64,000 nucleotides of DNA from Alcanivoracaceae bacterium (GTDB lineage Bacteria; Pseudomonadota; Gammaproteobacteria; Pseudomonadales; Alcanivoracaceae), in the NCBI GenBank assembly GCA_029210325.1, contig JARGPU010000002.1, forward strand, positions 62,001-126,000, written 5' to 3'. This document shows, piece by piece, positions 33,771-62,241 of this stretch. The stretch's first letter is position 1. Every line of letters starts with the position of its first letter. The translations under genes and the position numbers were made by a program. The notes below the pieces were generated by a model. The model did not search any database and was not told the origin of the DNA. It saw only the letters and a list, made by a program, of their open reading frames with translations.

Positions 33771-34784
33771 TTACTCTACCGGATTGACGCACTCGGCACG
33801 GCTGCTTTCCAGTTTGCAGCGGATGCGACGTTGCAAGGTGAGCATTTCACCGCTGTAGTATCCCAGATCGCGCATCTGCACACGGGCTTCCTGCATCATG
33901 ATTTCGTAGCCGGCCTTGTCGGCATCCGGAATTTCCACCCACCACTTCGGGTCCACGCTTTTCTCTTCCTTAGCCAGGCCTTCCAGAACGGCATCCAGAT
34001 TCTTGAAGAAATACTCGCGTGACGTCTGCATCATTTCCGCAGGGAAGCGATCGGTACGGGCGATTAGCTGCATGGTGATCTGTGCCAGAGGGTAGTTGAT
34101 GATCCCACCATCTGGCGTCATGCCCTTGTACAGCTCCAGCGGGGTATAGGCCACCAGCGGTGCAGCGACTACATCCACCACGCCGTTGTTAAACTTGCCC
34201 GAAAAATTGCTGACATCGGAAGCTACCGGGGTTGCACCGATCTGCGATACCAGAATTGATTGAGTTTTGTCGTATTCCAGTACCGCGATTTTCTTGCCAG
34301 CCGCTTTGGCAAGGGTGTTGATCTCGCGGTCATTAACAAAAAGGTAGGCAGCACCGGCTGGGGCAATGCCCATTAGCCCATAAGAGCTGGTAGTTACTTT
34401 TTCTGCTGAAGACGGGTGAGCCATTACCTGCAGCAGAATACGCATGTGGTCCATGGTCGGAATACCGCCGATGGAGTCCAGCGTGCCGGAATATTGGTTG
34501 AAGTCGCGGCCACGGATACCAGTAATCAAAGCCGCATCGCACTTGCCAGCCTTGAGGTCTTCGGCGGCGATCGCTTCGTTGGTAAACGGCACTAGCTCCG
34601 CTTCCAGACCCCACGCCATCGCTGCGGTGCTCCAGTCACGCATGGCTCCCATTACCGGACCAACATTGCCGATAATATCGAAAACGCAGATTTTGCGTTT
34701 GATCGGCTCAGCGCTAGCCGGACTGGAAGTCAGCAGGGCAAGAGGCAAGATGGCGGAGATAAGTGCAATAGCGGATTTCTTCAT
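33771..34784 (-). CDS. Periplasmic putative solute-binding protein, AdeT1/2-like family (paralogue 1 of 4)
   Basis: 337 residues with a Sec signal peptide (KKSAIALISAILPLALL, A-x-A near residue 24). The mature protein begins almost at once with the family core KRKICVFDIIGNVGP, then AAEDLKAGKCDAALITGIRGRDFNQYSGTLDSIGG, AGAAYLFVNDREINTLAKAAGKKIAVLEYD, the LELYKGMTPDGGIINYPLAQITMQLI segment and the terminal RIRCKL-x5-RAECVNPVE. The layout resembles TRAP/TAXI-type binding proteins. Three paralogues lie within 13 kb and a TRAP permease 4 kb away. This copy has no partner gene of its own. Substrate unknown; the AdeT1/2 name comes from Acinetobacter proteins once linked to efflux, which is doubtful here. 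Confidence 0.85.
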   Translation of the reverse strand: MKKSAIALISAILPLALLTSSPASAEPIKRKICVFDIIGNVGPVMGAMRDWSTAAMAWGLEAELVPFTNEAIAAEDLKAGKCDAALITGIRGRDFNQYSGTLDSIGGIPTMDHMRILLQVMAHPSSAEKVTTSSYGLMGIAPAGAAYLFVNDREINTLAKAAGKKIAVLEYDKTQSILVSQIGATPVASDVSNFSGKFNNGVVDVVAAPLVAYTPLELYKGMTPDGGIINYPLAQITMQLIARTDRFPAEMMQTSREYFFKNLDAVLEGLAKEEKSVDPKWWVEIPDADKAGYEIMMQEARVQMRDLGYYSGEMLTLQRRIRCKLESSRAECVNPVE

Positions 34785-34910
34785 AGTCAGCTTCCTGTTG
34801 TTATTCTGGCGCAGAGAATACCGTCAGAGCCCTTGGGAGGCGAGGGCATAATTGACCTTGGGGTCTGTTTCTGTGACCACCCGGGTCAGTAACCAGTTCC
34901 CTGAAACGCA

Positions 34911-34932
34911 ACGGGGCCTGTGCAGGCCCCGC
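34911..34932 (-). terminator. Terminator of gpmA
   Basis: GCGGGGCCT-gc-AGGCCCCGT-type hairpin, followed on the minus strand by TGCGTTT, about 30 bp after the gpmA stop. Confidence 0.75.
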
Positions 34933-34962
34933 ATTCAGCGCATTACAAAGTACTTTGTTGTT

Positions 34963-35712
34963 TCAGGCTTTACCCTGACTGGCAACTGCTGCAGCGGCTT
35001 TGGCAGCTTCCTCTGCGTCACCCAGATAGTAACTGCGCAATGGCTTGAGAGTATCATCCAGCTCGTACACTAGCGGAATGCCGGTGGGGATATTGAGCTT
35101 GAGGATGTCTTGCTCAGATATCTGATCCAGATGCTTCACCAGAGCTCGCAGACTATTGCCATGAGCAACGATCAGAACCTGTTTGCCGGCCTTGATCTGC
35201 GGCTCGATTTCGCTCTGGTAGTAAGGCACAAAGCGAGCCACGGTTTCCTTCAGGCTCTCGGTCAACGGGATCTCTTCTTCCTTCAGATTGTCCCGGTAGA
35301 CACGTTGGTTGCCTGCGTAGCGCTCGTCGCTCTTCTCCATTGCCGGCGGCGGGATGTCATAGCTGCGGCGCCAGATCAGTACCTGCTCCTCACCAAACTC
35401 CTGTGCGGTTTCGGCCTTGTTCAGACCCTGCAGGGCACCATAGTGGCGCTCGTTCAGGCGCCAGTTGCGAATGACTGGAATCCACATCTGATCCATGCCG
35501 TCGAGGATGGTCCACAGGGTGCGGATAGCGCGTTTCAGTACCGAGGTATAGGCCACCTCAAACTCGAAGCCAGCCTCTTTGAGCAGTTCTCCGGCACGGC
35601 GTGCTTCACCAACACCCTGTTCGGTCAGGTCAACGTCTTTCCAGCCGGTAAAGCGGTTTTCCTTATTCCAGGCGCTCTGGCCGTGACGGACCAGTACCAG
35701 TTTGATTGTCAT
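34963..35712 (-). CDS. gpmA: 2,3-bisphosphoglycerate-dependent phosphoglycerate mutase
   Basis: 249 residues. Catalytic His10 lies in [24 protein letters not shown] provides the second acid-base residue and the substrate loop; [12 protein letters not shown] contains the second catalytic histidine. The enzyme interconverts 3- and 2-phosphoglycerate using a phosphohistidine intermediate. A 20-residue Ala-rich tail ([16 protein letters not shown]) follows the normal end. It is divergent from rnd with 135 bp between the starts. Confidence 0.97.
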
Positions 35713-35847
35713 GGGGTGTCCTTGGGCGATGTCGACAGGGGCGCAAGGTTAGCAGAGAATCCCGGCTTCGTCAGGGGGGTCCGAGTCGGCGCAGCGCCAC
35801 CGGATATGCGTATAATGCGCCCCTGACTGAGTAAAGCGGGTATTCCC

Positions 35848-36924
35848 TTGAGCAAGTTTCACTGGATTGCGGACGACACGGCGCTGACGCAGCTGGGTAG
35901 CCAGCAGCAGGCTGGCGAGCGGTTGTTTATTGACACCGAATTTATGCGTGAGCGCACCTTCTGGCCGCGTCTGGCATTGCTGCAGGTGAATGACGGCCGT
36001 GGCTGTCACTTGATCGACCCGACCACCACCAGCGCCGAGCCAATGCATGACCTGTTGGCCTTGCGGCCGTTGGTTATGCACGCCTGCTCGGAGGACCTCG
36101 AAGCGCTGCGTATTGGCTGTAATGTTAAGCCCGCCGAGGTGATTGATACCCAGATCGGTGCAGCGCTGTGTGGCCATGATATGCAGACCAGCTATCAAAA
36201 GCTGGTGGAAACCCTGCTCGGTGTTAGCCTGCCGAAAACGGCCACCCGTACGGACTGGCTGCAGCGTCCGCTTAGCGCCGAGCAGCTTGAATATGCTGCC
36301 CATGATGTGGAGTACTTGCCCGGTATCTATCAGATTCTTTATGACCGTCTTGAGGCCCAGGGGCGCTTGGGGTGGTGGCGAGAGGAATGTGATCGTCTGG
36401 TGGCCGACTGCCAGCGCAGTACTGATCCAGATGATCTGTGGCGTCAGGTCAAAGGGGCGGCCTCGCTGGATGGCGAAGGACGTCGACGTCTGCGTCAATT
36501 GGCGATCTGGCGTGATGCCAGCGCTCGGCAGCGTGATATCCCGCGCAGCTTTATCCTTAAGGATGCGGAAATGCTTATGCTGGCCAGTCGCGGTGCCAGC
36601 CATCGTGGCCAGCTGGCAGAAACCGGCATGCACCCGTCGGCGTTGCGCCGTTTTGCTGATGCTTTGTTGGAAGTGCTGGCGCGGGCAGAGCAGGGAGAGA
36701 TACCGGAGCCACTACCCGGCATGCCGGAGCCGCACATCCGTGAGCGGATCAAGCGGCTGCGGGCCTATTTCAACAAGCTGGCAGAAGCTCACCAGCTGGC
36801 CCCAGAGGTGCTGGCACGGCGCCGCTGGGTCGAAGCTCTGGCTCGTGATCCAGAATGTCTGCCCGAACCTTTTGGGGGCTGGCGTGCTGGCCTGATCGGC
36901 AGCAGCCTGGGAGAGTTGATGTGA
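35848..36924 (+). CDS. rnd: Ribonuclease D
   Basis: 358 residues with an apparent TTG start (MSKFHWIADD); no better ATG is nearby and the family begins here. The DEDD exonuclease core is present: FIDTEFMRERTF (Asp, Glu), the MHACSEDLEAL segment (Asp) and the AEQLEYAAHDVEYL region (Tyr-x3-Asp). One or two HRDC domains follow. RNase D trims tRNA 3' ends. The stop overlaps the GTG start of ycgL by 4 bp (GTGA), so rnd-ycgL-ycgN form an operon. Confidence 0.96.
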   Translation: MSKFHWIADDTALTQLGSQQQAGERLFIDTEFMRERTFWPRLALLQVNDGRGCHLIDPTTTSAEPMHDLLALRPLVMHACSEDLEALRIGCNVKPAEVIDTQIGAALCGHDMQTSYQKLVETLLGVSLPKTATRTDWLQRPLSAEQLEYAAHDVEYLPGIYQILYDRLEAQGRLGWWREECDRLVADCQRSTDPDDLWRQVKGAASLDGEGRRRLRQLAIWRDASARQRDIPRSFILKDAEMLMLASRGASHRGQLAETGMHPSALRRFADALLEVLARAEQGEIPEPLPGMPEPHIRERIKRLRAYFNKLAEAHQLAPEVLARRRWVEALARDPECLPEPFGGWRAGLIGSSLGELM

Positions 36925-37214
36925 TTGATGATCATCGCTTGCTATGCAGTGTTTTTCGCAGCCCGAAACGGGAGGGCATGTATCTGTACGTGCGCCGTGA
37001 TCAGGACTTGCGTGAACTGCCGGAAGCTCTGATGAAAGTGTTCGGCATCCCTGCTCACAGCATGGACCTGCTACTAAGTGCAGAAAAAAAACTGGCCCGC
37101 GTCGAGGCCGCAAAAGTTATCGCCCAGATTCGTGAGCAGGGTTTCTTTTTGCAGATGCCGCCACAGGACAATGAAGAGCCGCTACCGCTGGCGCGGAAGA
37201 ACCGTGATGCGTGA
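36921..37214 (+). CDS. ycgL: YcgL domain protein
   Basis: 97 residues from the GTG at 36921, which overlaps the rnd stop. The YcgL fold motifs CSVFRSPKREGMYLYV, LPEALMKVFG and GFFLQMPP are all present. The family is small and alpha/beta, of unknown biochemical role, and almost always coupled to rnd in Pseudomonas-like genomes. It overlaps ycgN by 8 bp. Confidence 0.93.
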   Translation: MIDDHRLLCSVFRSPKREGMYLYVRRDQDLRELPEALMKVFGIPAHSMDLLLSAEKKLARVEAAKVIAQIREQGFFLQMPPQDNEEPLPLARKNRDA

Positions 37215-37650
37215 GCGTTTCTGGGAAAACATTCCTCTGGCGGAAATGTCCGCTCAGGAATGGGAGTCCCTGTGCGATGGCTGTGGTCGTTGTTGTGTGA
37301 TCAAGCTCGAAGACGAAGACACTGCGGAACTACACTATACCGATGTGGCCTGTCGTTATCTGGACTGCGAGCGCTGCCGCTGCACCGATTATGAGGGCCG
37401 TAGTGTTAAGGTGCCGGATTGTCTCCGGATTACACCGGCGTTTTTGGCGGAGCGTTCCCGCTGGCTGCCGGAAACCTGTGCCTATCGGCAACTGCATGAG
37501 GGCAGGCCGCTGGAGCCCTGGCATCCGCTGATCAGTGGCGAAGGTGATACTGTTATTGCAGCAGGTATTTCAATGCGCGGAGAGTTGATTTCAGAAGCGC
37601 TGGTCGACCCCGACGATTATGAAAACCACTTGATTAACTGGGTGAGGTAA
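37207..37650 (+). CDS. ycgN: YcgN/UPF0260 family cysteine-rich protein
   Basis: 147 residues from the ATG at 37207. The cysteine pattern CDGCGRCC near residue 23, then CRYLDCERCRC, C in PDCLRI and C in PETCAYR, is that of the UPF0260 (CxxCxxCC zinc/iron-sulphur-like) family. It probably binds a metal or Fe-S cluster; the activity is unknown. It is the third gene of the rnd-ycgL-ycgN operon. Confidence 0.93.
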   Translation: MRERFWENIPLAEMSAQEWESLCDGCGRCCVIKLEDEDTAELHYTDVACRYLDCERCRCTDYEGRSVKVPDCLRITPAFLAERSRWLPETCAYRQLHEGRPLEPWHPLISGEGDTVIAAGISMRGELISEALVDPDDYENHLINWVR

Positions 37651-37652
37651 AC

Positions 37653-37997
37653 GTGGCATCTCAGGGTTTTATGGTGGCTTGGAGTTGGTATCTGGTGGCG
37701 TTGCTGGTGGTCGCCTGGGTGTTGTGGCGCGGCAGTCGTTTTCTTCCTTTGGTATGGCGAACGCTAATCACCATTTTGCCTGTGCTGGTAGCCTTGGTGC
37801 CGGCCCCGGTATCACTATTGCACGAATCGCTGGCACCGGCCTGGATCGTCGCCTTGTTCGACGGTCTGGTGCAGGACGAAGGCTCGTTCTGGCGGGCCGG
37901 AAAATGGGTGGTGCTGGCTGCATCGGTCAGTCTGCTCCCCGTTTTGCTGGCGGCGCGGATTCAGCGAAAGCAGCCCAGTGAGGCAGAGCCGCAGTGA
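37653..37997 (+). CDS. Hypothetical small membrane protein
   Basis: 114 residues with a GTG start preceded by GAGG. Three hydrophobic segments (about 8-24, 32-50 and 85-101) mark an integral membrane protein. The WAW-x3-RGSRFLPLVWRT region has basic residues typical of a cytoplasmic loop. It follows ycgN by 2 bp and overlaps the HIT gene by 4 bp, so it is a genuine operon member. MFS/MCE-like hits are not evident; function unknown. Confidence 0.8.
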   Translation: MASQGFMVAWSWYLVALLVVAWVLWRGSRFLPLVWRTLITILPVLVALVPAPVSLLHESLAPAWIVALFDGLVQDEGSFWRAGKWVVLAASVSLLPVLLAARIQRKQPSEAEPQ

Positions 37998-38443
37998 GCG
38001 ACTGTCTGTTCTGCCACATCATTGACGGCAGTGAGCCTGCCAGTGTCATCTATCAGGATGAGCTGGCGATGGTGATTCTTGATTTGTTTCCGGTTAGTTG
38101 TGGCCATGCTCTGGTGATTGCCCGGCAGCATGCAGCTCAGCTTTGTGGACTCGATGAGGGGGTGTCGGCACACCTGTTGATGCTTGCCGAAAAAGTAATG
38201 GCAGCGCAGAAAAAGCTGGATAGCTCAATCGCCGCGCATAACCTGTTGGTAAATGACGGCAAGGTTGCCAACCAGCATGTGCCGCATGTACATCTACACG
38301 TTATTCCGCGCCGTCACGGCGACAATGCCAAGACAGTACTGAGTTGGACAACCCGGTTTATGCAACGCTTTAACCTGCAGTCTCGCCGCGAACGGCTAAA
38401 CCGCCTTGCTGCCGCATTGCGCGAGCAGCTTGAGGTCAGTTAA
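37994..38443 (+). CDS. HIT family nucleotide-binding protein
   Basis: 149 residues from the GTG at 37994. The CLFCHIIDG start and the histidine triad HVHLHVIPR define a HIT-family (HINT/Fhit-like) nucleotide hydrolase or AMP-lysine hydrolase. The C-terminus (RFNLQSRRERLNRLAAALRE) is helical and basic. It ends the rnd-ycgL-ycgN operon and overlaps the convergent PilZ gene by 8 bp. Confidence 0.93.
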   Translation: MSDCLFCHIIDGSEPASVIYQDELAMVILDLFPVSCGHALVIARQHAAQLCGLDEGVSAHLLMLAEKVMAAQKKLDSSIAAHNLLVNDGKVANQHVPHVHLHVIPRRHGDNAKTVLSWTTRFMQRFNLQSRRERLNRLAAALREQLEVS

Positions 38444-38777
38444 ACAGGTCTTCCCAGCCGCGCAGGTTCTCGCTGCTTGGCAAGATTTCTATGCCCGCCA
38501 CCAGTCCTTCCTTGCTATCACGCAGCCAGTTGACCCGGCCATCAAGGTGATAAGTGCCGAGATCGTCAAGCAAGGCGATCCAGATATCCACCAGCTGGCC
38601 CTCGGCCAACGGTTCTTCAAGTCGAACTTGCAGGCCAGACGCGGACATATCCACGGTTGAGCAGTACAGCGCGTCCAGCTGCAGCGTTGCCAGCGGATCA
38701 TTTACAGGACGTACCGCCAGTGTCTCCTCGCGCATTAAACGGGGGTGCCGGCGTTTGTCTTTATGCTCATCACTCAT
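38436..38777 (-). CDS. PilZ domain protein (cyclic-di-GMP binding)
   Basis: 113 residues. The two c-di-GMP contact motifs are intact: RxxxR at 9-13 (RRHPR) and D/NxSxxG at 43-48 (DMSASG), followed by the beta-barrel strands (GLQVRLEEPLAEGQLVDIWIALL, VNWLRDSKEG). It is a stand-alone PilZ protein. It starts 4 bp after the stop of the 49-residue membrane protein, which itself starts 15 bp after the TRAP permease, so c-di-GMP may modulate this transporter unit. It overlaps the convergent HIT gene by 8 bp. Confidence 0.9.
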   Translation of the reverse strand: MSDEHKDKRRHPRLMREETLAVRPVNDPLATLQLDALYCSTVDMSASGLQVRLEEPLAEGQLVDIWIALLDDLGTYHLDGRVNWLRDSKEGLVAGIEILPSSENLRGWEDLFN

Positions 38778-38781
38778 CGAC

Positions 38782-38931
38782 TTATCCGTAGATCATCCGG
38801 TCAACGACAGCGGCGGATGCGGCGATCACAAACACCACTACTGCCAGAAAAGCGACAAACTTCAGGAACGGCTTGAGCGTTGGCAGCGGCTCCGTGGGGC
38901 GCTGCGGCTTTTTACCTGAAGTGTCGCTCAT
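38782..38931 (-). CDS. Small single-span membrane protein (49 residues)
   Basis: Found by reading the gap between the permease and the PilZ gene. ATG at 38931, preceded by GGAGACAAAG (GGAG seven bases upstream), stop TAA at 38782. The N-terminus is hydrophilic and basic (MSDTSGKKPQRPTEPLPTLK); the hydrophobic span FVAFLAVVVFVIAASAAVV occupies about residues 24-42; the tail is short (DRMIYG). It is compatible with an accessory subunit of the TRAP permease, whose stop is 15 bp upstream. No family recognised. Confidence 0.8.
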   Translation of the reverse strand: MSDTSGKKPQRPTEPLPTLKPFLKFVAFLAVVVFVIAASAAVVDRMIYG

Positions 38932-38946
38932 CTTTGTCTCCATCGC

Positions 38947-41247
38947 TTACAGGCCACCACCGTAGGTGGCCTTCTGGAACATCCAGCCATGCAGGTCTTC
39001 AGACAGAAGTGGCGCATAAGACACAATTAGCAGGGCGGACAACATGATAATGATCGGTAGCGCGTATTTCTCGTGACGGCGCAGGAAGCTGGCCTGCCCG
39101 GGCGCGATCTTGGCACTCTCAACTTCATCATCACCGACCACTTGCCTCGCCAACAGATGGTTCAGCGCCACCGGCGGAGTCAGATAGCCAAGCTCGAAGG
39201 CAACCAGAGTAATCATCCAGAAGTGCAGCGGATCAATACCATTGGCAAATGCCACCTGAGCGATGGTCGCGTTCACCAGAATCACAGCGCCGTAGGGGTC
39301 CATGATCATGCCGATGATTACCATGGTGACAACCAGAATAGTGGTCGCGATCCAGATATTGGCAAAGGTTTCCGGCAGCATTTCCATCAGGCCGGAGCGC
39401 TCAATAATCCCGCCGGTGCTTACAGACAGGGCCATCAACATCAGCAGGGCACCGATATGACCGGTGGTTTCATTGGTAGCCAGACGCAGGGAGCTCTCCA
39501 TGCCCTTGCCAATTTCGCCATCATTGGCGTGGACCACCTTCTCGGTCAGCGGCTTGGTATTAAACAGGTAGTTGCTTGCCAGAATGCCGAGGATCAGCAG
39601 GTTGCGTACCACCAGTCCGGCCACATCAGCTTCTTCAACCGCACCATTGAAGATGCGCATGAACGAGATGCCGATCAGTGCAAGTAGCGCAAGAGAAGCA
39701 ATGTGAACAACGTGCTTGCTTAGTTTTTCGTAAAGCAGCACACCAATCAGCATCAGCGGCAGAATGATCGGGGCCGAGAATTCATCGGTCCGGCGATCCA
39801 GAACATCACGGAAGAATACAGCCACTACAATGATCATCAGCGCGTAGGGAGCCAGTGGAGCAAGCGCCCGGATGCTCTTTGGTACTGCTTCAGAGAACGG
39901 CGCGATACGTGACGGCTGAGTGCGGAAGAGCTGGGACACAAGGAAGAACAGCACAATGCTGAGCACGTAAACCTTGAAGCCGGAATCGAACAGCTCGTTG
40001 GTGGTTACGCTGCGGTTCAGAGCAGCGATGATCACTACAAGCAGACAGGGGCGTAGTACCACACCCATGGAGCCAGACATGGCGGTCGCAGCCAGAGCCA
40101 GCTGCTTGCGGGCACCGGCGCGAATCAGTTCCTGATAGATCACTGCGCCGGCGGCGATAATAAAGATACCGGAAGCGCCAGTGAAGGCGGTGGGGAAGGC
40201 GGCCAGCGCCAGCACAACAAAACACATTAGCTCCGGAGACATATTCCAGGGACGCAGCACATCAAAGGCCAGCTGAGCCATGCGGGTTTGCTTCAGCATC
40301 ATGCCGATCCAGATATACAGGGCCAGGTTCAGGAACATGGTGGAAAGTTCCATCATCATGCCCAGATACACGCTTATGCCGTGGTAATAGCCCTGTGACA
40401 TGAACTGAGCGCCGGCTGATAGGCACATAAAGCTGTACAGCGGAATAGTCAGGAAGGCATGGCCCCAGCCGCCTCCTTGCTCCAGATCCTTGGGTGGCTT
40501 GATCAACTGATACAGGTTGATCACTGACAGCAGGGAGAAACCCATGATCCAGAATACGTGCAGATAGAAGTCATGAACCTGCACTCCCTGATCCATACTT
40601 ATCTGCTCTTGACCACGGTAAACGGTGGCAGACATCAGCAACATCAGGTTGGCTAGCAGCTGTGCAGAAGTGCCAACGTAGTGATCCTTGGCAGTGCGCA
40701 CCGGGCGCAGAGAAATGTGATGACGCTGCAGGGTGGTGGTGGCCGCACAGATCAGCAGCAGCACGCACAGCAGCAGGCGTTTGTAGTTGCCAAGGCTAGT
40801 GACAATGGCGGCTACGCCCGTTTCCAGGTTGCGGAATGCAATCACCCCAGGGGTAACGCGCTCCTGAACTCGCTGAAACGACTCCCAGCGCTCGCGGCAG
40901 ATTTCACGTGAGCTTTCCAGGGACTGCCGGATGGCACCTTCATCGACTTCGCTGCCGAAAATACCGGCCAGTGGGTCATCAGCCATGGCAGCAGTCTGCT
41001 CGCGAACGGCACGCGACACTTCAGATTCGATATCCGGGTCACGATTACAGGTCGGCTCACTTACCAGGCCGGCACTGCGTAGTTCGAAATAACCCTGCCA
41101 AGAGGTCTCACCAATTTTCAGTAGCTGGGAGTGGATAATCTCGCCAGATGCCAGAAAGATGGTCAGCAGCAGAATGACAATGGTGGGGAGTGATGACAGC
41201 CACTCACCCGCAGAGCGGTTGGCCACGGTAATAGTGCTTTTATGCAT
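38947..41247 (-). CDS. TRAP-type transporter permease, fused small and large (DctQM-like)
   Basis: 766 residues from the ATG at 41247 (MHKSTITVANRSAG); an in-frame start 27 codons earlier lacks a site. A first membrane helix (about 17-35) is followed by a roughly 100-residue soluble segment with two cysteines (TCNRD, EICRERW), probably periplasmic, then at least three DctQ-like spans, then the DctM-like large domain with about 12 helices. Large-subunit signatures are GSMGVVLRPCLLVVIIAAL, the MDPYGAVILVNATIAQVA segment and FELGYLTPPVALNHLLA. It should import a solute, driven by ions, from the adjacent binding protein. Ends with a GGG-rich tail. Confidence 0.88.
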   Translation of the reverse strand: MHKSTITVANRSAGEWLSSLPTIVILLLTIFLASGEIIHSQLLKIGETSWQGYFELRSAGLVSEPTCNRDPDIESEVSRAVREQTAAMADDPLAGIFGSEVDEGAIRQSLESSREICRERWESFQRVQERVTPGVIAFRNLETGVAAIVTSLGNYKRLLLCVLLLICAATTTLQRHHISLRPVRTAKDHYVGTSAQLLANLMLLMSATVYRGQEQISMDQGVQVHDFYLHVFWIMGFSLLSVINLYQLIKPPKDLEQGGGWGHAFLTIPLYSFMCLSAGAQFMSQGYYHGISVYLGMMMELSTMFLNLALYIWIGMMLKQTRMAQLAFDVLRPWNMSPELMCFVVLALAAFPTAFTGASGIFIIAAGAVIYQELIRAGARKQLALAATAMSGSMGVVLRPCLLVVIIAALNRSVTTNELFDSGFKVYVLSIVLFFLVSQLFRTQPSRIAPFSEAVPKSIRALAPLAPYALMIIVVAVFFRDVLDRRTDEFSAPIILPLMLIGVLLYEKLSKHVVHIASLALLALIGISFMRIFNGAVEEADVAGLVVRNLLILGILASNYLFNTKPLTEKVVHANDGEIGKGMESSLRLATNETTGHIGALLMLMALSVSTGGIIERSGLMEMLPETFANIWIATTILVVTMVIIGMIMDPYGAVILVNATIAQVAFANGIDPLHFWMITLVAFELGYLTPPVALNHLLARQVVGDDEVESAKIAPGQASFLRRHEKYALPIIIMLSALLIVSYAPLLSEDLHGWMFQKATYGGGL

Positions 41248-41442
41248 GGTCGTCCCGGTTGTTGTTATGGGGCCGGATATCGGCGGTGGATTGACGCGAC
41301 TTCCGGACGTCCGGCATGTACGCGACACAGTGAATCGGATTCTATGCCACGCGGCTTTGCTTGCCTACCGCGAAAACTGGCTGAAAAGGACAAATATGGT
41401 TAAAAAACAGGCAGTCAGGCATTGGCCTGAAGATTCAAACAG

Positions 41443-41465
41443 AAACGGGGCCAAAGGCCCCGTTT
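41443..41465 (-). terminator. Hairpin between the binding-protein gene and the TRAP permease
   Basis: AAACGGGGCC-TTT-GGCCCCGTTT on the minus strand, a 10-bp perfect stem 29 bp after the stop of the solute-binding gene, followed by CTGTTTG. It would act as a partial terminator or mRNA-stabilising hairpin, raising binding-protein output over permease. Confidence 0.8.
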
Positions 41466-41494
41466 CGTCTTGATTGTATATTGCTTGCCGGCAC

Positions 41495-42508
41495 TTACTC
41501 TTGCCGGTTTACACATTCGGCCCGTGAAGCATCCAGTTTGCAACGAATACCGATTAGCAGGCGCATCATGTCGGCGTCATAAATACCTTCATCACGCAGG
41601 GCGATACGGGATTCGCGCATCATTTCGTCGTAACGGACACGATCAGCTTCCGGGATACGGATCCACCACTTCTGATCCACTTCCTTCTCGGCGTTTTCGA
41701 CAATGCGCATGGCCTTATCGAACTGGCTGGCCACATATTGTCGTGACTTCTGGCCAAAGCCCTCAGGGAACAGTTCGTGGCGAGTCAGGATCTGCAGGGT
41801 CAGCTGGCCCAGTACGTAGTCAACAATACCGCCATTCGGCTGCATGCCCTTGTACAGTTCCAGAGCCGAGTAGGCCATCATCGGAGCGAAGCAGATATCC
41901 ACATTGCCATTGTTGAAACGGCCAGCAAAGTTGGTGATGTCGGACAGCACCGGTGACATGCCAACCCGTGAGGCCATCTTTGCCTGCGCCGTGTCGTACT
42001 CCATTACCGAAATGGACTTGCCTGCCAACTTGTTAACATTGTTGATGGAGCGGTCCTTAACGAACAGGTAAGCCGCTCCCATAGGTGCAATGCCGACCAC
42101 TTCGAACGGGCCGTTAACCAGCTTCTCGTTGATCTTGGGGTGGCCACTGGCAAGGATCTTGATTACTTCCTGAACATGCCGATAGGTGGGCAGGGTGGCG
42201 ATTGAGTCGAGGCTGCCGGTGTAGCTGTTCAGAGAGCGTGCCCGGATGCCTGTGATGGCGGCCGCATCGCACTGGCCCGCCTTCAGGTCTTCCATGGCGA
42301 CCTTCTCTTCGGTGTGAACCTTGAGATCGAAATCCACGCCCCAGGCCAGCGCCGCAGTGCGGTAGTCGCGCATCATGTTAAAGGTATCGCCGGACTGGCC
42401 AACGATATCGAAGATGCACAGGGTGCGCTTTTCCATGGCGCTGGCGGGCAGCGAAGCCAAGCCGAGCACAGCGGCGGCGGCAAGGGCTACAAGTTTGTGG
42501 TGACGCAT
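41495..42508 (-). CDS. Periplasmic putative solute-binding protein, AdeT1/2-like family (paralogue 2 of 4)
   Basis: 337 residues with a Sec signal peptide (KLVALAAAAVLGLASLPASA). Family core is intact: KRTLCIFDIVGQSGDTFN, AMEDLKAGQCDAAAITGIRARSLNSYTGSLDSIA, GAAYLFVKDRSINNVNKLAGKSISVMEYD, ALELYKGMQPNGGIVDYVLGQLTLQIL and the terminal GIRCKLDASRAECVNRQE. It is the most divergent of the four (ends NRQE rather than NPVE). It lies 33 bp after the TatT-like lipoprotein and 247 bp before the permease start, so it is the most likely dedicated receptor for this transporter. Confidence 0.88.
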   Translation of the reverse strand: MRHHKLVALAAAAVLGLASLPASAMEKRTLCIFDIVGQSGDTFNMMRDYRTAALAWGVDFDLKVHTEEKVAMEDLKAGQCDAAAITGIRARSLNSYTGSLDSIATLPTYRHVQEVIKILASGHPKINEKLVNGPFEVVGIAPMGAAYLFVKDRSINNVNKLAGKSISVMEYDTAQAKMASRVGMSPVLSDITNFAGRFNNGNVDICFAPMMAYSALELYKGMQPNGGIVDYVLGQLTLQILTRHELFPEGFGQKSRQYVASQFDKAMRIVENAEKEVDQKWWIRIPEADRVRYDEMMRESRIALRDEGIYDADMMRLLIGIRCKLDASRAECVNRQE

Positions 42509-42541
42509 AATTCAGTTCTCTCTATTGCAGGACGCCAATAA

Positions 42542-43570
42542 TTAAAGAAGGTCGTCGATATTGATGGAAGACTGGTTTTTAGCTGCATCGTCCCAGAACG
42601 TGCCCAAGCCTCCCAGCGGAGTGCGGCGGCCAGTGGCTTCAGTCCACAGGCGATCAGAGATCGAGCTGACCATGGTCGCAGCCATGGTGTCGATCATGCG
42701 GTATTCCGCGTTGACCTTGTCGCTTTTGGCGAAGTCACGGATGGCCTTGCGCAGGTGCTCATCGTCACCTTTGCTGTAGGCGGCCATGGCATACATGGCG
42801 CTGCCCAGACGGACACCATTACGGAAGCCAGCATCAGCGGCCTTTTGTAGCTCTTCCCATGGCTGGGCGTTGGCCGGGGCCAGCATCGGCAGGATGCTCC
42901 AGACAGACGCACGAATACCACGCGGAGCGCCCCACCATTCGTCATTGTTCAGACAGGTCACGCCGCGCTCAACCTTGGCAGCGATATCCCGCGGTACACC
43001 TACAGAGCCATCGGCAATGCCGTCGTTCATCAGCGCCTGCAGACCACCCACCATGCCGATCATCCATACCAGCTGGTCAAACTCCTTCTTCAGTTTCGGG
43101 CACTCGCCGTCCTTCGGGTGCTTGAAGGCGGCCATCAGGCGGTTATATGACTCCAGCTGACGCTTGGCCGATATGGCGGCGTAACGTTTCTGCAGAATGC
43201 GGGCATCCTGTGCTTCCGCCACGTTGCCTTGCTTAACGGCACGCAAGTAGCGCATTTCCTGCTCCAGCGACAGCTCTTCAGTACAGCTGGCAGCGGTGAC
43301 ATACATCAGCACGGCAAGTTTGTCCGGATTTGAGCCCACCCGTTCAAATGACATAAGTAGGGGGGTTTGAGCTTCGCCAGCGGCGCAGGCAATACGGGTG
43401 TCGTCGTCCGACATCATGTGCGGCAGCATTTCTGAGCGGCCGAAGCCCATCAGAATATCACCCGTGGACTTGTAGACGATTCCACAGCCTTGCAGAACGA
43501 GCAGGGCGGCTCCCAGCAACACAGCGCGGGTAGCTGCCATCGGGGAGGGCATAAAGGCAGTCGGGGTCAT
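42542..43570 (-). CDS. TatT-like lipoprotein (TRAP transporter T-component, TPR fold)
   Basis: 342 residues. Signal peptide with lipobox LQGC, so Cys29 would be lipidated and the protein anchored in the outer (or inner) membrane facing the periplasm. The rest is all-helical with TPR-like repeats (regions around ESYNRLMAAFKH, VWMIGMVGGLQALMNDG, EELQKAADAGFRNGVRLGSAMYAMAAYS and LRKAIRDFAKSDKVNAEYRM). This matches the TatT family, trimeric lipoproteins that bind TRAP solute-binding proteins in TPAT systems (Treponema Tp0956/Tp0957). It starts the minus-strand unit TatT-SBP-permease-small protein-PilZ and is divergent from the kinase gene. Confidence 0.8.
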   Translation of the reverse strand: MTPTAFMPSPMAATRAVLLGAALLVLQGCGIVYKSTGDILMGFGRSEMLPHMMSDDDTRIACAAGEAQTPLLMSFERVGSNPDKLAVLMYVTAASCTEELSLEQEMRYLRAVKQGNVAEAQDARILQKRYAAISAKRQLESYNRLMAAFKHPKDGECPKLKKEFDQLVWMIGMVGGLQALMNDGIADGSVGVPRDIAAKVERGVTCLNNDEWWGAPRGIRASVWSILPMLAPANAQPWEELQKAADAGFRNGVRLGSAMYAMAAYSKGDDEHLRKAIRDFAKSDKVNAEYRMIDTMAATMVSSISDRLWTEATGRRTPLGGLGTFWDDAAKNQSSINIDDLL

Positions 43571-43778
43571 CGGGACTTCTCCGGGTTATTGTTATTCGTG
43601 GTTCTGGCGAGATTAGGGTCGCCTAAACTACCCAATGGCCCGCGCCGGTACAAGCCGGCGGTTACAAAACGCAACGTGGCTGTTACGGTGGTAGCGATAT
43701 GCGACGGTTGTCCGATAGCGTGCCGGTTACGTATCAGTAACAATTGCGCCCCTATAGTGTGCAACCTGCGAGGACAAG

Positions 43779-45134
43779 ATGAGCAAGACCAACGGGCAAC
43801 GTGAAACCCAGACCATGCTGGAAGAGGGCCGTACCGGTTTTGGCCTGGCGCTGACGGCGGCCCGTGGTGGACTGCGCATGCTGCAGACTGTGTCGGTGCT
43901 GGCCCGTACCGGCGGTGGTTGGCTGTTCGGCGAGCGACCGCCATTGCCACGCCTGCTGCGAGAGACCTGCGAATCCCTTGGCACCACCTATATCAAGCTG
44001 GGTCAGTTTGTCGCCAGCTCACCGTCGCTGTTCCCGGATGAATATGTAGAAGAGTTCCAGAAGTGCCTGGATCGCACCCCGGGGCTGCCGTTTCACTACA
44101 TCCGCCGTACTGTGGAAAGCGAGCTCGGCAAGCCACTGGAAACCCTCTACGCCTGGGTGGATCCCAAGCCGCTGGCCTCTGCGTCTATTGCTCAGGTGCA
44201 CGCAGCACGGCTGCACAATGGCGACGAAGTGGTTATCAAGGTGCAGCGGCCCAATGTGGAAAACGTGCTGTTGACCGACTTCAACTTCATCTATTTCGGC
44301 GCCCGTATGCTTGAGCGTCTGGCGCCAGGTTTGTCCCATTCCGCCGTTTCCGGGGTTATTGAGGAGCTCCAGGCATCCATGCTGGAGGAGTGTAACTTCG
44401 AGCTGGAAGCCGAGCACTTGACCAAGTTTAACGAGTTTCTTCATGCCACCGGCAACACCCAGGCGGTCGCGCCGCGACCTTACCCGGAGCTGTCCAGCCG
44501 TCGGGTGCTGACCATGGAGCGCTTCTTCGGTGTGCCGCTGACCGATATCGAGGTGCTGCGCAAATACACCCCGGATCCGGCCCAGGCTCTGATCGGCGCG
44601 CTTAATACCTGGTTCTCCAGCCTGATGCTGTGTGACTTTTTCCACGCTGATGTGCACGCCGGCAATCTGATGTTGCTGGAAGATGGCCGGGTAGGTTTTA
44701 TCGATTTCGGCATCGTCGGCAAGGTGCGCAAAACCACCTGGGAGGCCATGGCCAAGCTGTTCGATGGTATTGGTCGAGGAGACAACCGGGTGATTGCTGA
44801 GGCCATGGCGGTGGTCGGCATGACCCGCGAAGCGGTTGATATCGATGCGCTCACCACTGATATCGAGAAACTTCAGGACCGGCTGATGAACGTCGACCCG
44901 GCCACTCTGGTGCAGGGCGACCGCAATGACCGCGAAGTGAATCGCCTGCTGATGGATCTTATTCGTATTGGCGAAGAGCACGGCATTCGCTTTCCGCGGG
45001 AGTTCGCCTTGCTGTTGAAGCAGTTCCTGTACTTTGACCGTTACGTTCAGGCGCTGGCGCCAGAGATGGATCTTTTCTCCGACTCCCGCGTCGATATGTG
45101 GGGCGGGCTCGACGAGATAAACCTGCTCCACTAA
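43779..45134 (+). CDS. UbiB/ABC1-family (AarF-like) atypical kinase
   Basis: 451 residues. The ABC1-family motifs are visible: KxGQ at 73-76 (IKLGQF), the alanine-rich nucleotide loop region ASASIAQVHAA, the VVIKVQRPNV lysine strand, HADVHAGNL and IDFGIVG. These proteins bind ATP and are linked to ubiquinone or lipid biosynthesis and transport. It is divergent from the TatT-like gene (208 bp between starts) and followed by a terminator. It is not the ubiE-ubiJ-ubiB locus copy, so a role other than canonical ubiquinone synthesis is possible. Confidence 0.9.
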   Translation: MSKTNGQRETQTMLEEGRTGFGLALTAARGGLRMLQTVSVLARTGGGWLFGERPPLPRLLRETCESLGTTYIKLGQFVASSPSLFPDEYVEEFQKCLDRTPGLPFHYIRRTVESELGKPLETLYAWVDPKPLASASIAQVHAARLHNGDEVVIKVQRPNVENVLLTDFNFIYFGARMLERLAPGLSHSAVSGVIEELQASMLEECNFELEAEHLTKFNEFLHATGNTQAVAPRPYPELSSRRVLTMERFFGVPLTDIEVLRKYTPDPAQALIGALNTWFSSLMLCDFFHADVHAGNLMLLEDGRVGFIDFGIVGKVRKTTWEAMAKLFDGIGRGDNRVIAEAMAVVGMTREAVDIDALTTDIEKLQDRLMNVDPATLVQGDRNDREVNRLLMDLIRIGEEHGIRFPREFALLLKQFLYFDRYVQALAPEMDLFSDSRVDMWGGLDEINLLH

Positions 45135-45154
45135 CCCGGTAGGAAACCCGGCAG

Positions 45155-45176
45155 GAGCGGCTTTAGCCGCTCTTTA
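45155..45176 (+). terminator. Terminator after the UbiB-like kinase
   Basis: GAGCGGC-ttta-GCCGCTC followed by TTTATT, about 20 bp after the stop. The GGAGCGGCTTTAGCCGC core also resembles REP-like sequences found elsewhere in the window. Confidence 0.8.
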
Positions 45177-46277
45177 TTACTCGACTGGATTGACGCACTC
45201 TGATCGCGCCGCATCAAACTTGCAGCGCACCTTGCGCTGCAGGGTCAGCATGTCTGGATCGTAATATTCTCGATCGCGCAAATGCAGGCGCGCCTGTTGC
45301 ATCATGATTTCGTATTCACGCTGATCCCGCTCCGGGACATCAATCCACCAGTGGGCCGGAACCTTGGCGGTTTCTTCGCCAAGTCTTTCCATTATCAGAC
45401 CATAATTCTGCAAAAAAACCTCGCGCACTAACTGGGCTAGCTCGTTGGGAAATTTGTCCGTACGGCCAATAATCTGCATGGTCATCTGCGCCAGCGGGAA
45501 GCGCACGATGCCACCATTAGGGGACATGCCCTTGTATAGCTCCAATACTTCGTAGGCCACCAGCGGGGCCGGTAATACGTCAACTACACCATTGTTAAAC
45601 TTGTTTGGTGCGGAAACGATGTCAGAAAGAATCGGAGTGGCACCAATCTGCGATACCATTTCTGCCTGTACCTTGTCGTAATCAAGTACCGCGACCTTTT
45701 TGCCGGCAGCCTTGGCGAGGCTGCTGATCGAGCGGTCATTAACAAAAACATAGATCGCACCGGCAGGAGCAATCCCTAGTACCACATATTCGCCGCTGAC
45801 CATCTTGTCCGCATTGCGCGGAGAATTCACTGCTTGCAGCAGCACGTGCATGTGCTCTTCATCCGGTACTGCCCCTACCGCATCAATGGTGCCGCTATAG
45901 CGATGGAACAAACGGCCCCGCAGGCCAGTCATCAGGGCTGCATCACAGATGCCGCTTTTCAGGTCCTCGGCGATCACCGTTTCATTGGTGTAGGGCACCA
46001 TCTCCACATCGACGCCGTACTGCATTATCTGGCCACGTTGATCCTGCGCTGCCGCATAAATGGGGCCGGAGCGTCCGGCAATATCCCAGATGCAGATCTT
46101 ACGCTTGATCAGTTTGTCTTTTGGGTAATCATAAAGCTGACGAATCGCGGCAATGCGCTGATCAAGGCTCAGGGACTGATCATAGGCGCTGGCGCGTAGC
46201 TGCTCATCAGTCGGCGCGGCATGTGTAGCAGCAGCTAGAATAAAAATTGGCAGTAGCGCGGTCAGTCTTTTTAGCAT
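45177..46277 (-). CDS. Periplasmic putative solute-binding protein, AdeT1/2-like family (paralogue 3 of 4)
   Basis: 366 residues with a signal peptide (KRLTALLPIFILAAATHAA). Compared with paralogues 1 and 2 it has about 33 extra residues between the signal and the core (DEQLRASAYDQSLSLDQRIAAIR helix). The core has KRKICIWDIAGRSGP, AEDLKSGICDAALMTGLRGR, VFVNDRSISSLAKAAGKKVAVLDYD, LELYKGMSPNGGIVRFPLAQMTMQII and the terminal KVRCKFDAARSECVNPVE. It is second in a pair with paralogue 4, 34 bp downstream of it, with no permease beside the pair. Confidence 0.86.
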   Translation of the reverse strand: MLKRLTALLPIFILAAATHAAPTDEQLRASAYDQSLSLDQRIAAIRQLYDYPKDKLIKRKICIWDIAGRSGPIYAAAQDQRGQIMQYGVDVEMVPYTNETVIAEDLKSGICDAALMTGLRGRLFHRYSGTIDAVGAVPDEEHMHVLLQAVNSPRNADKMVSGEYVVLGIAPAGAIYVFVNDRSISSLAKAAGKKVAVLDYDKVQAEMVSQIGATPILSDIVSAPNKFNNGVVDVLPAPLVAYEVLELYKGMSPNGGIVRFPLAQMTMQIIGRTDKFPNELAQLVREVFLQNYGLIMERLGEETAKVPAHWWIDVPERDQREYEIMMQQARLHLRDREYYDPDMLTLQRKVRCKFDAARSECVNPVE

Positions 46278-46311
46278 GATTACTTTCCTTGGTAGTTCGA
46301 TTTAGCTCTGG

Positions 46312-47502
46312 TTATTCCACCGGATTGACGCACTCACCGCGCTCGGGCGAATACTTGCAGCGGATGCGCCGTTGCAGGGTTAGCATTTCTGCATCGTAAT
46401 AGTCCATATCGCGCAGGCTTATACGAGCCTGCTGCATCATGTTGCTGTATTCCTGCATGTCGCTTTCGGGAATGGGAATCCACCACTTTTCCGGGATCTT
46501 AACTTCTTCCCGCGAGATCATTTCAATCACTCGCGGGTACTGCTCAAAGGAAGCCTCGCGAATCAACTGGGCGGCCTCATTGGGGAACTTATCCAGGCGA
46601 CCAATCAGCTGCATGGTGATCTGCGCTAGCGGGTAGTTGATGATGCCGCCATTGGGTGTCATGCCCTTGTAGAGCTCCAGTATTTCGTAGGCCAGTAGCG
46701 GCGCTGGCAGAATGTCCACTACGCCATTGTTGAACATGCCCGGCGCTCGGGTGATATCGGTACTCACCGGTGTGGCGCCAACGCCGGCAATCATCTTTGC
46801 CTGCATCGGGTCATATTCAAGTACGGCAACTTTTTTGCCCGCGGCTTTTGACAATGTGTTGATCGAGCGGTCGTTTACGAATACATAGGCAGCGCCGGCG
46901 GGGAATACGCCGAGCACCACATATTCACCTTGCACCATTTTATTGGCGGTACGCGGATTGGTGATTACCTGAAACAGGGTGTGCAGGTGGTCGCGATCCG
47001 GTAGTGCGCCGATGGCATCAATAGAGCCGGTGTATTTATTAAACTGACGGGCGCGCAGGCCGCTCATCAATGCGGCGTCGCAACGGCCAGCCTTGAATTC
47101 TTCGACCATCACGGTTTCATTGGTGTAGGGCACCATCTCCAGCTCAACGCCAAACTCCAGCGCCTGAGCACGGGCCTCCATGGCGGCACCGAATATGGGC
47201 CCAGCCCGACCGACAATATCCCAGATGCAGATGACGCGGCGCAGGCGCTGGCCTTCGGGCAGCTTGTCGATGCCGGATAGTTTGGCAATGGCCTTCAGTC
47301 TGTCGTTCACCGGCATATCGGCGTTCAGGCTGATCTCGGTCATCATCCGAACCAGCTCGGGAGTCAGCTCGATGCCGGGTAACAGGCGTTGGAACTCGGC
47401 CAGCTGCTCTGGGGTGAGCGATGAGGCGGGCTGCTTTTCCGCAGTGGCGACAGTGGGGATCAGCAGGGTAAAGGCCAGCAATAGCGCGGATAGGTGTTTC
47501 AT
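46312..47502 (-). CDS. Periplasmic putative solute-binding protein, AdeT1/2-like family (paralogue 4 of 4)
   Basis: 396 residues, the longest of the four, with a signal peptide (KHLSALLLAFTLLIPTVATA) and an N-terminal helical extension of about 65 residues (LTPEQLAEFQRLLPGIEL, NADMPVNDRLKAIAKLSGI). The core has RRVICIWDIVGRAGP, EEFKAGRCDAALMSGLRARQFNKYTGSIDAIGA, VFVNDRSINTLSKAAGKKVAVLEYD and ends RIRCKYSPERGECVNPVE. It is most like paralogue 3, so the two look like a tandem duplication. Substrate unknown; the extension may interact with TatT or a membrane partner. Confidence 0.86.
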   Translation of the reverse strand: MKHLSALLLAFTLLIPTVATAEKQPASSLTPEQLAEFQRLLPGIELTPELVRMMTEISLNADMPVNDRLKAIAKLSGIDKLPEGQRLRRVICIWDIVGRAGPIFGAAMEARAQALEFGVELEMVPYTNETVMVEEFKAGRCDAALMSGLRARQFNKYTGSIDAIGALPDRDHLHTLFQVITNPRTANKMVQGEYVVLGVFPAGAAYVFVNDRSINTLSKAAGKKVAVLEYDPMQAKMIAGVGATPVSTDITRAPGMFNNGVVDILPAPLLAYEILELYKGMTPNGGIINYPLAQITMQLIGRLDKFPNEAAQLIREASFEQYPRVIEMISREEVKIPEKWWIPIPESDMQEYSNMMQQARISLRDMDYYDAEMLTLQRRIRCKYSPERGECVNPVE

Positions 47503-60570: not shown

Positions 60571-62241
60571 ATGAGCGAATCTTTCGCCGAACTGTTTGAA
60601 GAAAGTCTGAAGTATCTCGACGTTGCCCGTGGTGCGATTATTCGCGGCACCGTGGTAGCCATCGACAGCGATTGGATCACCGTTAATGCCGGACTGAAGT
60701 CCGAAGGTGTGATCGCACGCGAAGAATTTCTTAGTGAGCGTGGTGAGCTGGAAATCAACGTAGGCGACGAAGTTGAAGTTGCCGTTGATGCCATCGACGA
60801 TGGCATGGGCTTCACCCGCCTGTCGCGCGAAAAAGCCAAGCGCGCCGAAATCTGGGGCGAACTCGAAGAAGCCTTCGAGAAGACCGCCATCGTTAAAGGT
60901 ATCATCAGTGGCAAGGTCAAGGGCGGTTTCACCGTCGACGTCGGTCTTATCCGCGCGTTCCTGCCAGGCTCTCTGGTCGATATCCGTCCGGTGCGCGACG
61001 TCGCTCACCTGGAAGGCAAAGAGCTGGACTTCAAAGTTATCAAGCTCGATGCCAAGCGCAACAACGTGGTTGTTTCCCGCCGCGCAGTTATGGAAGCCGA
61101 ACACAGTGCCGAGCGCGATCAGCTGCTCGAGTCGCTGCAGGAAGGCATGGTTGTTAAAGGTATCGTCAAGAACCTCACCGATTACGGTGCGTTTGTTGAT
61201 CTGGGCGGCATCGACGGCCTGCTGCACATCACCGATATGGCCTGGAAGCGCATCAAGCATCCGTCCGAGATCGTTGAAGTTGGTCAGGAAATCGAAGTCA
61301 AGGTACTCAAGTTTGACCGTGACAAGATGCGCGTCTCCCTTGGCCTCAAGCAGCTGGGCGAAGATCCGTGGCACGACATCGTGGCCCGCTACCCACAGGG
61401 TGCCAAGGTCAAGGCCAAGATCACCAACCTTACCGACTACGGCTGCTTTGCCGAAATCGAAGAGGGTGTGGAAGGTCTGGTGCACGTATCCGAAATGGAT
61501 TGGACCAACAAGAACATTCACCCATCCAAAGTCGTTTCCATTGGCGACGAAGTGGATGTGATGATCCTCGACATCGAGCAGGACCGTCGCCGCATTTCCC
61601 TGGGTATCAAGCAGTGCCAGGCGAATCCGTGGGAGTCCTTCGGTACCAAGTACCAGAAAGACGACAAAGTCAGCGGCAAGATCAAGTCGATCACCGATTT
61701 CGGTATCTTCATTGGCCTGGAAGGCGGCATCGATGGTCTGGTGCACCTGTCTGACATCTCCTGGGAAGAGACCGGCGAAGATGCAGTGCGCAAGTTCGCC
61801 AAGGGCGACGAGCTGGAAACTGTCATTCTGTCCATCGACCCGGAGCGTGAGCGCATCTCCCTGGGCGTGAAGCAATTGACAGGCGATCCGTTCGGTCAGT
61901 ATGTTGCTGAGAATGACCGTAACGCTATCGTCAAAGGCACTGTGGCTGCTGTAGACCAGAAGGCTGCTACCATCACTCTGGCTGAAGGTATCGAAGGCAG
62001 CTTGAAGGCCTCTGAAATGTCTCGTGATCGCGTTGACGATCTGTCTGCCGTCCTTAAGGTCGGTGACGAAGTCGAAGCCAAGATCATTGCTGTGGATCGT
62101 AAGAACCGTGCCATCACTCTGTCCGTGAAAGCCAAGGACATGAAGGATGAGGCGGAAGCGGTAGACAGTCTGCGTCAGGACGCTCAGGCACCGAAGACCA
62201 TCGGTGATCTGATCAAGGCACAGATGGGCGGTAACGAGTAA
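60571..62241 (+). CDS. rpsA: 30S ribosomal protein S1
   Basis: 556 residues with six S1 (OB-fold) repeats; repeats 3-6 are marked by the recurring pattern [29 protein letters not shown] (at about 195-215, with variants further on). S1 unwinds mRNA and recruits weak leaders to the ribosome. The start ([18 protein letters not shown]) and end are typical. The 119-bp gap after cmk is likely to hold its own promoter and autoregulatory leader. A long antisense frame on the other strand is a composition shadow. Confidence 0.98.

Follow-up and report, generated by a model that had tools for sequence, protein, structure and literature searches.

A TPAT-type TRAP importer locus with several AdeT receptors in an Alcanivoracaceae bacterium

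A stretch of 64,000 nt from the genome of an Alcanivoracaceae bacterium (GCA_029210325.1, contig JARGPU010000002.1, forward-strand positions 62,001 to 126,000), hereafter called the window, encodes within 13.7 kb four paralogous solute-binding proteins of the AdeT1_2 family (S1, S2, S3, and S4), one fused permease of the tripartite ATP-independent periplasmic (TRAP) type, and one lipoprotein resembling TatT of the tetratricopeptide-repeat-protein-associated TRAP transporters (TPATs) of Treponema pallidum. It is well supported that this locus is a TPAT-type TRAP importer with AdeT receptors, since the TRAP fold, the TatT-like fold, the co-occurrence of AdeT and TatT, and the loss of the carboxylate-binding arginine all point in this direction and make hydrophobic ligands most likely. 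In the explanation that we prefer, and to which we assign a probability of about 60%, the TatT-like lipoprotein most likely sits on the periplasmic side of the outer membrane and would supply soluble AdeT receptors with a ligand that is hydrophobic or neutral; these receptors would traverse the periplasm and deliver the ligand by docking on the one fused DctQM permease, which would import it at the expense of an ion gradient. S2 would be the dedicated partner of TatT and permease, while S1, S3, and S4 would share the same permease and probably broaden the ligand range or the periplasmic capacity.

The Alcanivoracaceae are an oil-degrading family, and across it an importer of a known type is kept in which a single membrane channel is accompanied by four related binding proteins. 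To our knowledge, it is poorly understood how hydrophobic compounds cross the periplasm in alkane degraders, and the conserved TatT-AdeT-permease set with its extra receptors constitutes a genetically simple case for studying whether ligands are shuttled through the periplasm and whether receptors are shared in TRAP transporters.

Predicted folds of receptors, lipoprotein, and permease

All four receptors match PF19582 (AdeT1_2) with 282–307 bits at a curated cut-off of 27, although about 110 positions at the start of the 394-position profile remain uncovered, and S2, S3, and S4 are 48–54% identical to S1. An earlier note, made from the DNA letters of the window, had recognized four paralogous binding proteins, a fused permease, and a TatT-like lipoprotein within positions 33,771 to 47,502; all six genes are indeed located there, and PF19582, PF06808, and the TatT-like fold bear out this description. 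Of the core motifs that it listed, the tail reads RCK-x4-R-x-ECVN and not x5, and S2 has the variant CDAAAITG. Four cysteine residues are invariant in 69 of 69 aligned AdeT proteins, and the receptors possess signal peptides in which, by reading, a lipobox is absent.

A model of S4 was built with AlphaFold2 (AF2) from the 69-row alignment after removal of the signal peptide and has a mean confidence (pLDDT) of 94. Foldseek finds 4nn3 as its best match in the PDB (E 3.4e-14), the best 50 matches listed all being TRAP-type receptors by title, and VIA-align superimposes model and 4nn3 with Z 25.4 at 3.0 Å over 289 residues. S4 is therefore predicted with high confidence to be a TRAP (DctP-fold) receptor, and the TRAP-receptor nature that the earlier note had ascribed to the set withstands this check by structure prediction. 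S4 is the member that was modelled; S1, S2, and S3 probably adopt the DctP fold as well, judged by their identity within the set. TatP(T) of Treponema is not among the best 50 VIA-align matches listed for S4, which excludes nothing. Residues 1–60 of the S4 model form three additional helices outside the part that matches TRAP receptors; S3 has a shorter form of this extension by sequence, and S1 has none. By reading, an N-terminal extension of the S4 type is present in many orthologues.

All 14 homologues examined retain the lipobox cysteine (Cys29) of the lipoprotein, and no Pfam or NCBIfam model matches the protein at E 0.01. For its AF2 model (14-row alignment, pLDDT 73), the VIA-align list is headed by 3u64, which is TatT of Treponema (Z 13.4), followed by 4di3_A (13.3), 8g52 (12.8), 7t1s, which is BstC (11.6), and 8g53 (10.5); below these five, of which all but BstC are TatT or TPAT proteins, come a designed barrel (10.3) and remaining matches with Z of 9.0 or less. 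By this rank of structural matches, we accept the lipoprotein as a member of the group with a predicted TatT-like fold.

In the permease, DctM (PF06808) matches residues 383–769 of one open reading frame (ORF) of 793 aa with 6.9e-15. This ORF is open up to a GTG at 41328, but the ATG at 41247 is the likelier start and is the one used in most aligned relatives. The DctQ model has no match in the permease, where the additional N-terminal membrane region is seen by hydropathy only, and the protein is classified as a predicted fused TatQM (DctQM) type. A charged loop of about 104 residues follows its first transmembrane segment, contains two cysteine residues invariant in 10 aligned permeases, and is possibly a docking domain.

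Conservation of the locus and co-occurrence of AdeT with TatT

Within the family, 46 of 46 genomes carry AdeT (3–8 copies), the permease, and TatT, and best BLAST matches identify orthologues of S1, S2, TatT, and the permease in all 14 family genomes that were fetched. Two short peptide patterns, which detect close relatives only, led to 43 named permease loci, 39 of them from Alcanivorax, Alloalcanivorax, or other Alcanivoracaceae and four from metagenome-assembled genomes labelled only Pseudomonadales or Gammaproteobacteria (L074, L104, L107, and L109); the nearest belongs to Alcanivorax sp. 1008 (98%). The arrangement TatT-S2-permease is present in 38 of the 43 loci, including L109 from outside the family, and an ABC1 kinase accompanies it in all 38. 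S3 and/or S4 are found as well in 32 of these 38, the remainder being either cut by contig ends (L074, L106, and L107) or provided with other genes (L103, L108, and L109). In the other five named loci, the permease is an additional one, and the stretch examined contains no receptor gene. Ratios of non-synonymous to synonymous substitution rates, calculated against one close relative (L069), are 0.029–0.074 for the four receptors (S3 having 0.074), 0.032 for the permease, and 0.043 for TatT, and the locus genes are under strong purifying selection. Because it recurs across the family and its genes are selected in this way, the arrangement is not due to chance; the same set is found in related genomes, in synteny in the 14 fetched relatives and in most named loci, and is not scattered.

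In a sample of 244 genomes from the order, AdeT (at E 0.001) occurs in 45 and TatT-like proteins (at E 1e-10) also in 45. Both genome lists are identical, so that 45 genomes possess both proteins and the remaining 199 yielded neither, which, together with the TatT and TPAT entries at the head of the structural list, sustains the membership in the TPATs proposed earlier. A sample of the class contained AdeT in 5 of 274 genomes, two of the five being from the order. Among 38 AdeT-carrying genomes outside the family (35 from the order, 3 from other orders), the permease is present in 37 and TatT in 37; the genome without permease (G213) has its TatT-AdeT pair at a contig end. When 20 regions around AdeT from 15 genomes outside the family are considered, TatT, AdeT, and permease occur together in 13, and an ABC1 kinase in two, one of which is the homologous locus.

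Receptor sharing, ligand class, and alternative explanations

The genome as a whole, 3.03 Mb in size with a completeness of 99.85%, encodes AdeT five times, a TatT-like protein twice, and a permease of the TatQM kind once, i.e., in a ratio of 5:2:1, and the only other DctM-like frame is a weak one (6e-8). The fifth AdeT, which is S2-like, adjoins the second TatT-like gene on another contig (L005 1477-3557), with no permease within the 3.8 kb around the pair; the gene beside them is presumably mnmE-like. It is plausible from these counts, five receptors and one permease, that four receptors share one permease, in agreement with the earlier note's suggestion of several receptors feeding one permease.

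In a tree of 84 AdeT proteins, midpoint-rooted for drawing purposes only, a 100/100 branch places S2 with the 14 permease-adjacent receptors of other families on one side and S1, S3, and S4 on the other, where they are joined by two receptors from another family (L126) that are unlinked. According to this grouping, S2 is the likely permease partner, and S1, S3, and S4 belong to a separate receptor clade. Unlinked receptors of genomes G144, G080, and G093 fall inside the S2 clade, suggesting that a receptor surplus arose more than once. The 123 AdeT matches in the 38 genomes outside the family, with up to seven copies per genome, have TatT and permease within 1.6 kb in 47 cases, TatT in 15, the permease in 6, and neither in 55, the last number being an upper figure as some matches are fragments or lie at contig ends; such orphans occur in 24 of the 38 genomes. 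A more far-reaching proposal, which we hold only tentatively and do not favour as a whole, would be that one outer-membrane TatT and one permease serve interchangeable soluble AdeT receptors tuned to different ligands, the whole being devoted to shuttling hydrophobic molecules through the periplasm, that the AdeT-TatT link is obligate across the order, and that the AdeT described as RND efflux components (RND, resistance-nodulation-division) in Acinetobacter belong to an uptake system.

The most serious rival explanation assumes that S1, S3, and S4 receive ligand from TatT but act in the periplasm as carriers or sensors for other envelope processes, and that only the S2-permease pair imports. 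It draws on the same tree, where the label "beside a permease" changes only 6 times compared with 19–28 times in 200 shuffles, on the orphan matches just mentioned, and on the additional N-terminal part of S4, which is shorter in S3. However, S1, S3, and S4 remain within tens of kb of permease and TatT in the fetched family genomes, and, when receptors are assigned to the two groups by nearest window paralogue, 42 columns with at least 90% conservation have the same residue in both groups, whereas no column is conserved in both but switched. We regard this rival as unlikely, if worth keeping in mind.

Several observations weigh against an importer in which receptors supplied with ligand by TatT share one permease. 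Among the 84 sampled receptors, the clade of S1, S3, and S4 has no permease-adjacent member, so these three may not dock on the permease. In the 14 fetched relatives, the locus has one permease in seven and two in tandem in the other seven, which means that the design does not depend on there being only one. One of the 38 AdeT genomes outside the family (G487) has no TatT match. As to the lipoprotein, Foldseek ranks 3u64 first but at a weak E of 0.17, the VIA-align Z of about 13 is within the tool's caution range for helical proteins, and a sequence-level search of the PDB retrieved nothing relevant. Finally, gene neighbourhoods were compared between 100 of 123 size-filtered ORFs (180–1000 aa, some probably not real genes) from 18 of the 20 AdeT regions and 100 of 167 ORFs from 18 regions of these contigs that served as controls, for which the 25 top protein families are listed. 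Acyl-CoA thioesterases account for 3 of the 100 AdeT neighbours, all from loci of a single bacterial family (f29), and are not among the 25 control families listed; as control families below rank 25 fall outside that list, the neighbourhoods give no clear lipid signal. Two single neighbourhoods that seem suggestive are mentioned without being counted as evidence: in Alcanivorax sp. DG881 (L092 1352-12325), an extra permease without receptor is situated near acyl-CoA dehydrogenase-like, AMP-binding, thioesterase, GMC oxidoreductase, and PF10118 genes, and in L113, three AdeT genes lie beside FMO-like, SDR, and hydrolase genes.

For the ligand class, a single position is informative. TRAP receptors hold carboxylates by an arginine, Arg147 in SiaP, and Tp0957 of Treponema has an alanine at this position together with a hydrophobic pocket (PMC4646407; papers are cited by their PubMed Central numbers). 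The equivalent column in the 69 aligned AdeT contains A 54, S 7, V 3, P 3, and G 2 times, and R or K in no case; it was set by two weak PDB alignments of the AdeT profile, with 4nn3 (E 0.013, the best value of the receptor profile against the PDB) and with the R147A mutant of SiaP (2xwk, E 0.11), and the count is that of the alignment column, as a regular expression had missed 74 of 204 rows. The lack of R and K in 69 AdeT and the alanine of Tp0957 favour a ligand that is not a carboxylate and is probably hydrophobic. An ordinary carboxylate TRAP transporter, with a helical lipoprotein beside it by happenstance, would be in line with the DctP fold, the DctM permease, and the organic acids for which TRAP transporters are mainly known (PMC10942642, PMC4646407), but it is improbable in view of the arginine lost in 69 of 69 AdeT and of the same 45 genomes having AdeT and TatT. 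Hardly credible is the idea that AdeT are RND-type membrane-fusion (efflux) proteins, although they are so named in PMC7687900 and two of the three AdeT of A. baumannii CP040042.1 are annotated "RND transporter," because the S4 model has a TRAP-receptor fold, S1–S4 match only AdeT1_2 and TRAP or periplasmic-binding models and no membrane-fusion model at E 0.01, a Pfam study places AdeT1_2, with its TRAP-like features, in the periplasmic-binding-protein clan (PMC11467057), and PMC7687900 itself reports that E. coli acquires no resistance from wild-type AdeT1, although the Lys280-propionylated form raised the minimum inhibitory concentration of erythromycin.

Locus layout and relation to known systems

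On the minus strand, TatT, S2, and permease genes follow each other in this order, S4 and S3 form a second minus-strand pair, and the plus-strand ABC1 kinase gene is located between TatT and S3 (Table 1). S1 is outside the operon, with about seven other genes between it and the permease. The position of the ABC1/UbiB-like kinase beside tatT is perhaps synteny only; at a locus of another family (L132), a relative of this kinase (49%) is encoded downstream of a TPAT operon. A scan for sigma-70-like promoters found 7 where 9.2 are expected. In the window, a hairpin lies 31 nt past the final sense codon of S2, ahead of the permease gene, and the spacer folds at z -2.64. Reading of the spacers in the window and in 14 relatives (L052 by eye) shows a GC-rich hairpin 14–40 nt after S2 in all 15, the permease ATG being situated 112–273 nt past the final sense codon of S2, and for 10 of these spacers none of 100 letter shuffles of the same spacer gives a hairpin as good as the best one present. 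Such a hairpin may lower permease expression relative to S2 and so raise the receptor relative to the permease.

Table 1. Features of the locus, in window coordinates.
Feature	Coordinates	Strand	Basis
S1, AdeT1_2 solute-binding protein, orphan clade	33771..34784	-	PF19582 306.7 bits; clade II of tree
Predicted fused DctQM-type TRAP permease, 766 aa	38947..41247	-	PF06808; 10-row alignment; hydropathy
GC-rich hairpin between S2 and permease genes	41442..41466	-	hairpin scan; RNA fold
S2, AdeT1_2 receptor in putative permease-partner (TatP) position	41495..42508	-	PF19582 306.2 bits; 100/100 grouping
TatT-like helical lipoprotein (predicted fold), lipobox LQGC, Cys29	42542..43570	-	AF2 model; VIA-align; invariant Cys29
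ABC1/UbiB-like atypical kinase, divergent from tatT	43779..45134	+	PF03109; synteny
S3, AdeT1_2 receptor, orphan clade, short N-terminal extension	45177..46277	-	PF19582 281.6 bits; clade II
S4, AdeT1_2 receptor, orphan clade, N-terminal extension of ~60 residues with three helices	46312..47502	-	PF19582 302.1 bits; AF2 model

TPATs have been described in 35 other species besides T. pallidum, those in free-living proteobacteria being mostly in hydrocarbon degraders (PMC5812351). With such TPATs and the AdeT clusters of Acinetobacter in print, the locus type is already known. On a plasmid of Marinobacter adhaerens, too, the gene order is TatT-like, AdeT, TRAP permease. That TatT might carry ligands, as the earlier note had considered, is an already published proposal for Treponema, where TatT would pass lipid to the receptor (PMC5812351). 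The same note knew of no described system with four AdeT1/2-like receptors per permease; none was found among the open-licence PMC matches listed, but this claim to singularity is weakened by the tandem permeases in relatives, the three AdeT in a row in A. baumannii, and the AdeT copy numbers outside the family. Neither an AdeT-TatT link nor several receptors per TRAP permease were found among those matches, and the excerpt of PMC7284936 contains nothing on either. The strict co-occurrence of AdeT and TatT, the division of the receptors into two clades, and their excess were likewise not found in print among the matches listed.

A further TatT-like protein is BstC, the sterol-binding protein of a methanotroph, which we take to be Methylococcus. 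BstC has the TatT-like fold in common with the lipoprotein of the window and is described together with BstB, a phosphonate-type binding protein (PMC10942540), whereas the receptors studied here are predicted DctP-fold proteins beside a TRAP permease.

AdeT1 and AdeT2 of Acinetobacter belong to the same family PF19582 and are encoded in tandem copies too. Three AdeT in a row in A. baumannii CP040042.1 match a family profile built for this analysis with E 1e-94 to 1e-122, and four copies are known from strain AB5075 (PMC6679007). In contrast to the AdeT of the window, they are labelled as parts of RND efflux systems, surveys such as PMC5622949 listing AdeT among the efflux genes, and neither TatT nor permease is present in the 24.9-kb stretch around the CP040042.1 tandem. 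We argue that the Acinetobacter AdeT are TRAP-type receptors, and that they should be re-annotated from efflux genes. One A. baumannii record listed as a plasmid (L154 1-12939) holds dnaA-recF-gyrB in addition to three AdeT, and other matches are records of 3.7–4.1 Mb, so that some PLSDB records look like chromosomes.

The closest known system is the TPAT of T. pallidum (TatT Tp0956, TatP(T) Tp0957, and TatQM), with which the locus shares a three-gene core of tatT, receptor, and fused permease, the predicted TatT-like fold, and a small residue in place of the carboxylate arginine. In Treponema, TatT and TatP(T) are both lipoproteins (PMC5812351), whereas the receptors described here lack a lipobox. 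They also differ in belonging to the AdeT1_2 family with its four invariant cysteine residues and in being supernumerary, with five receptors and two TatT-like genes for one permease.

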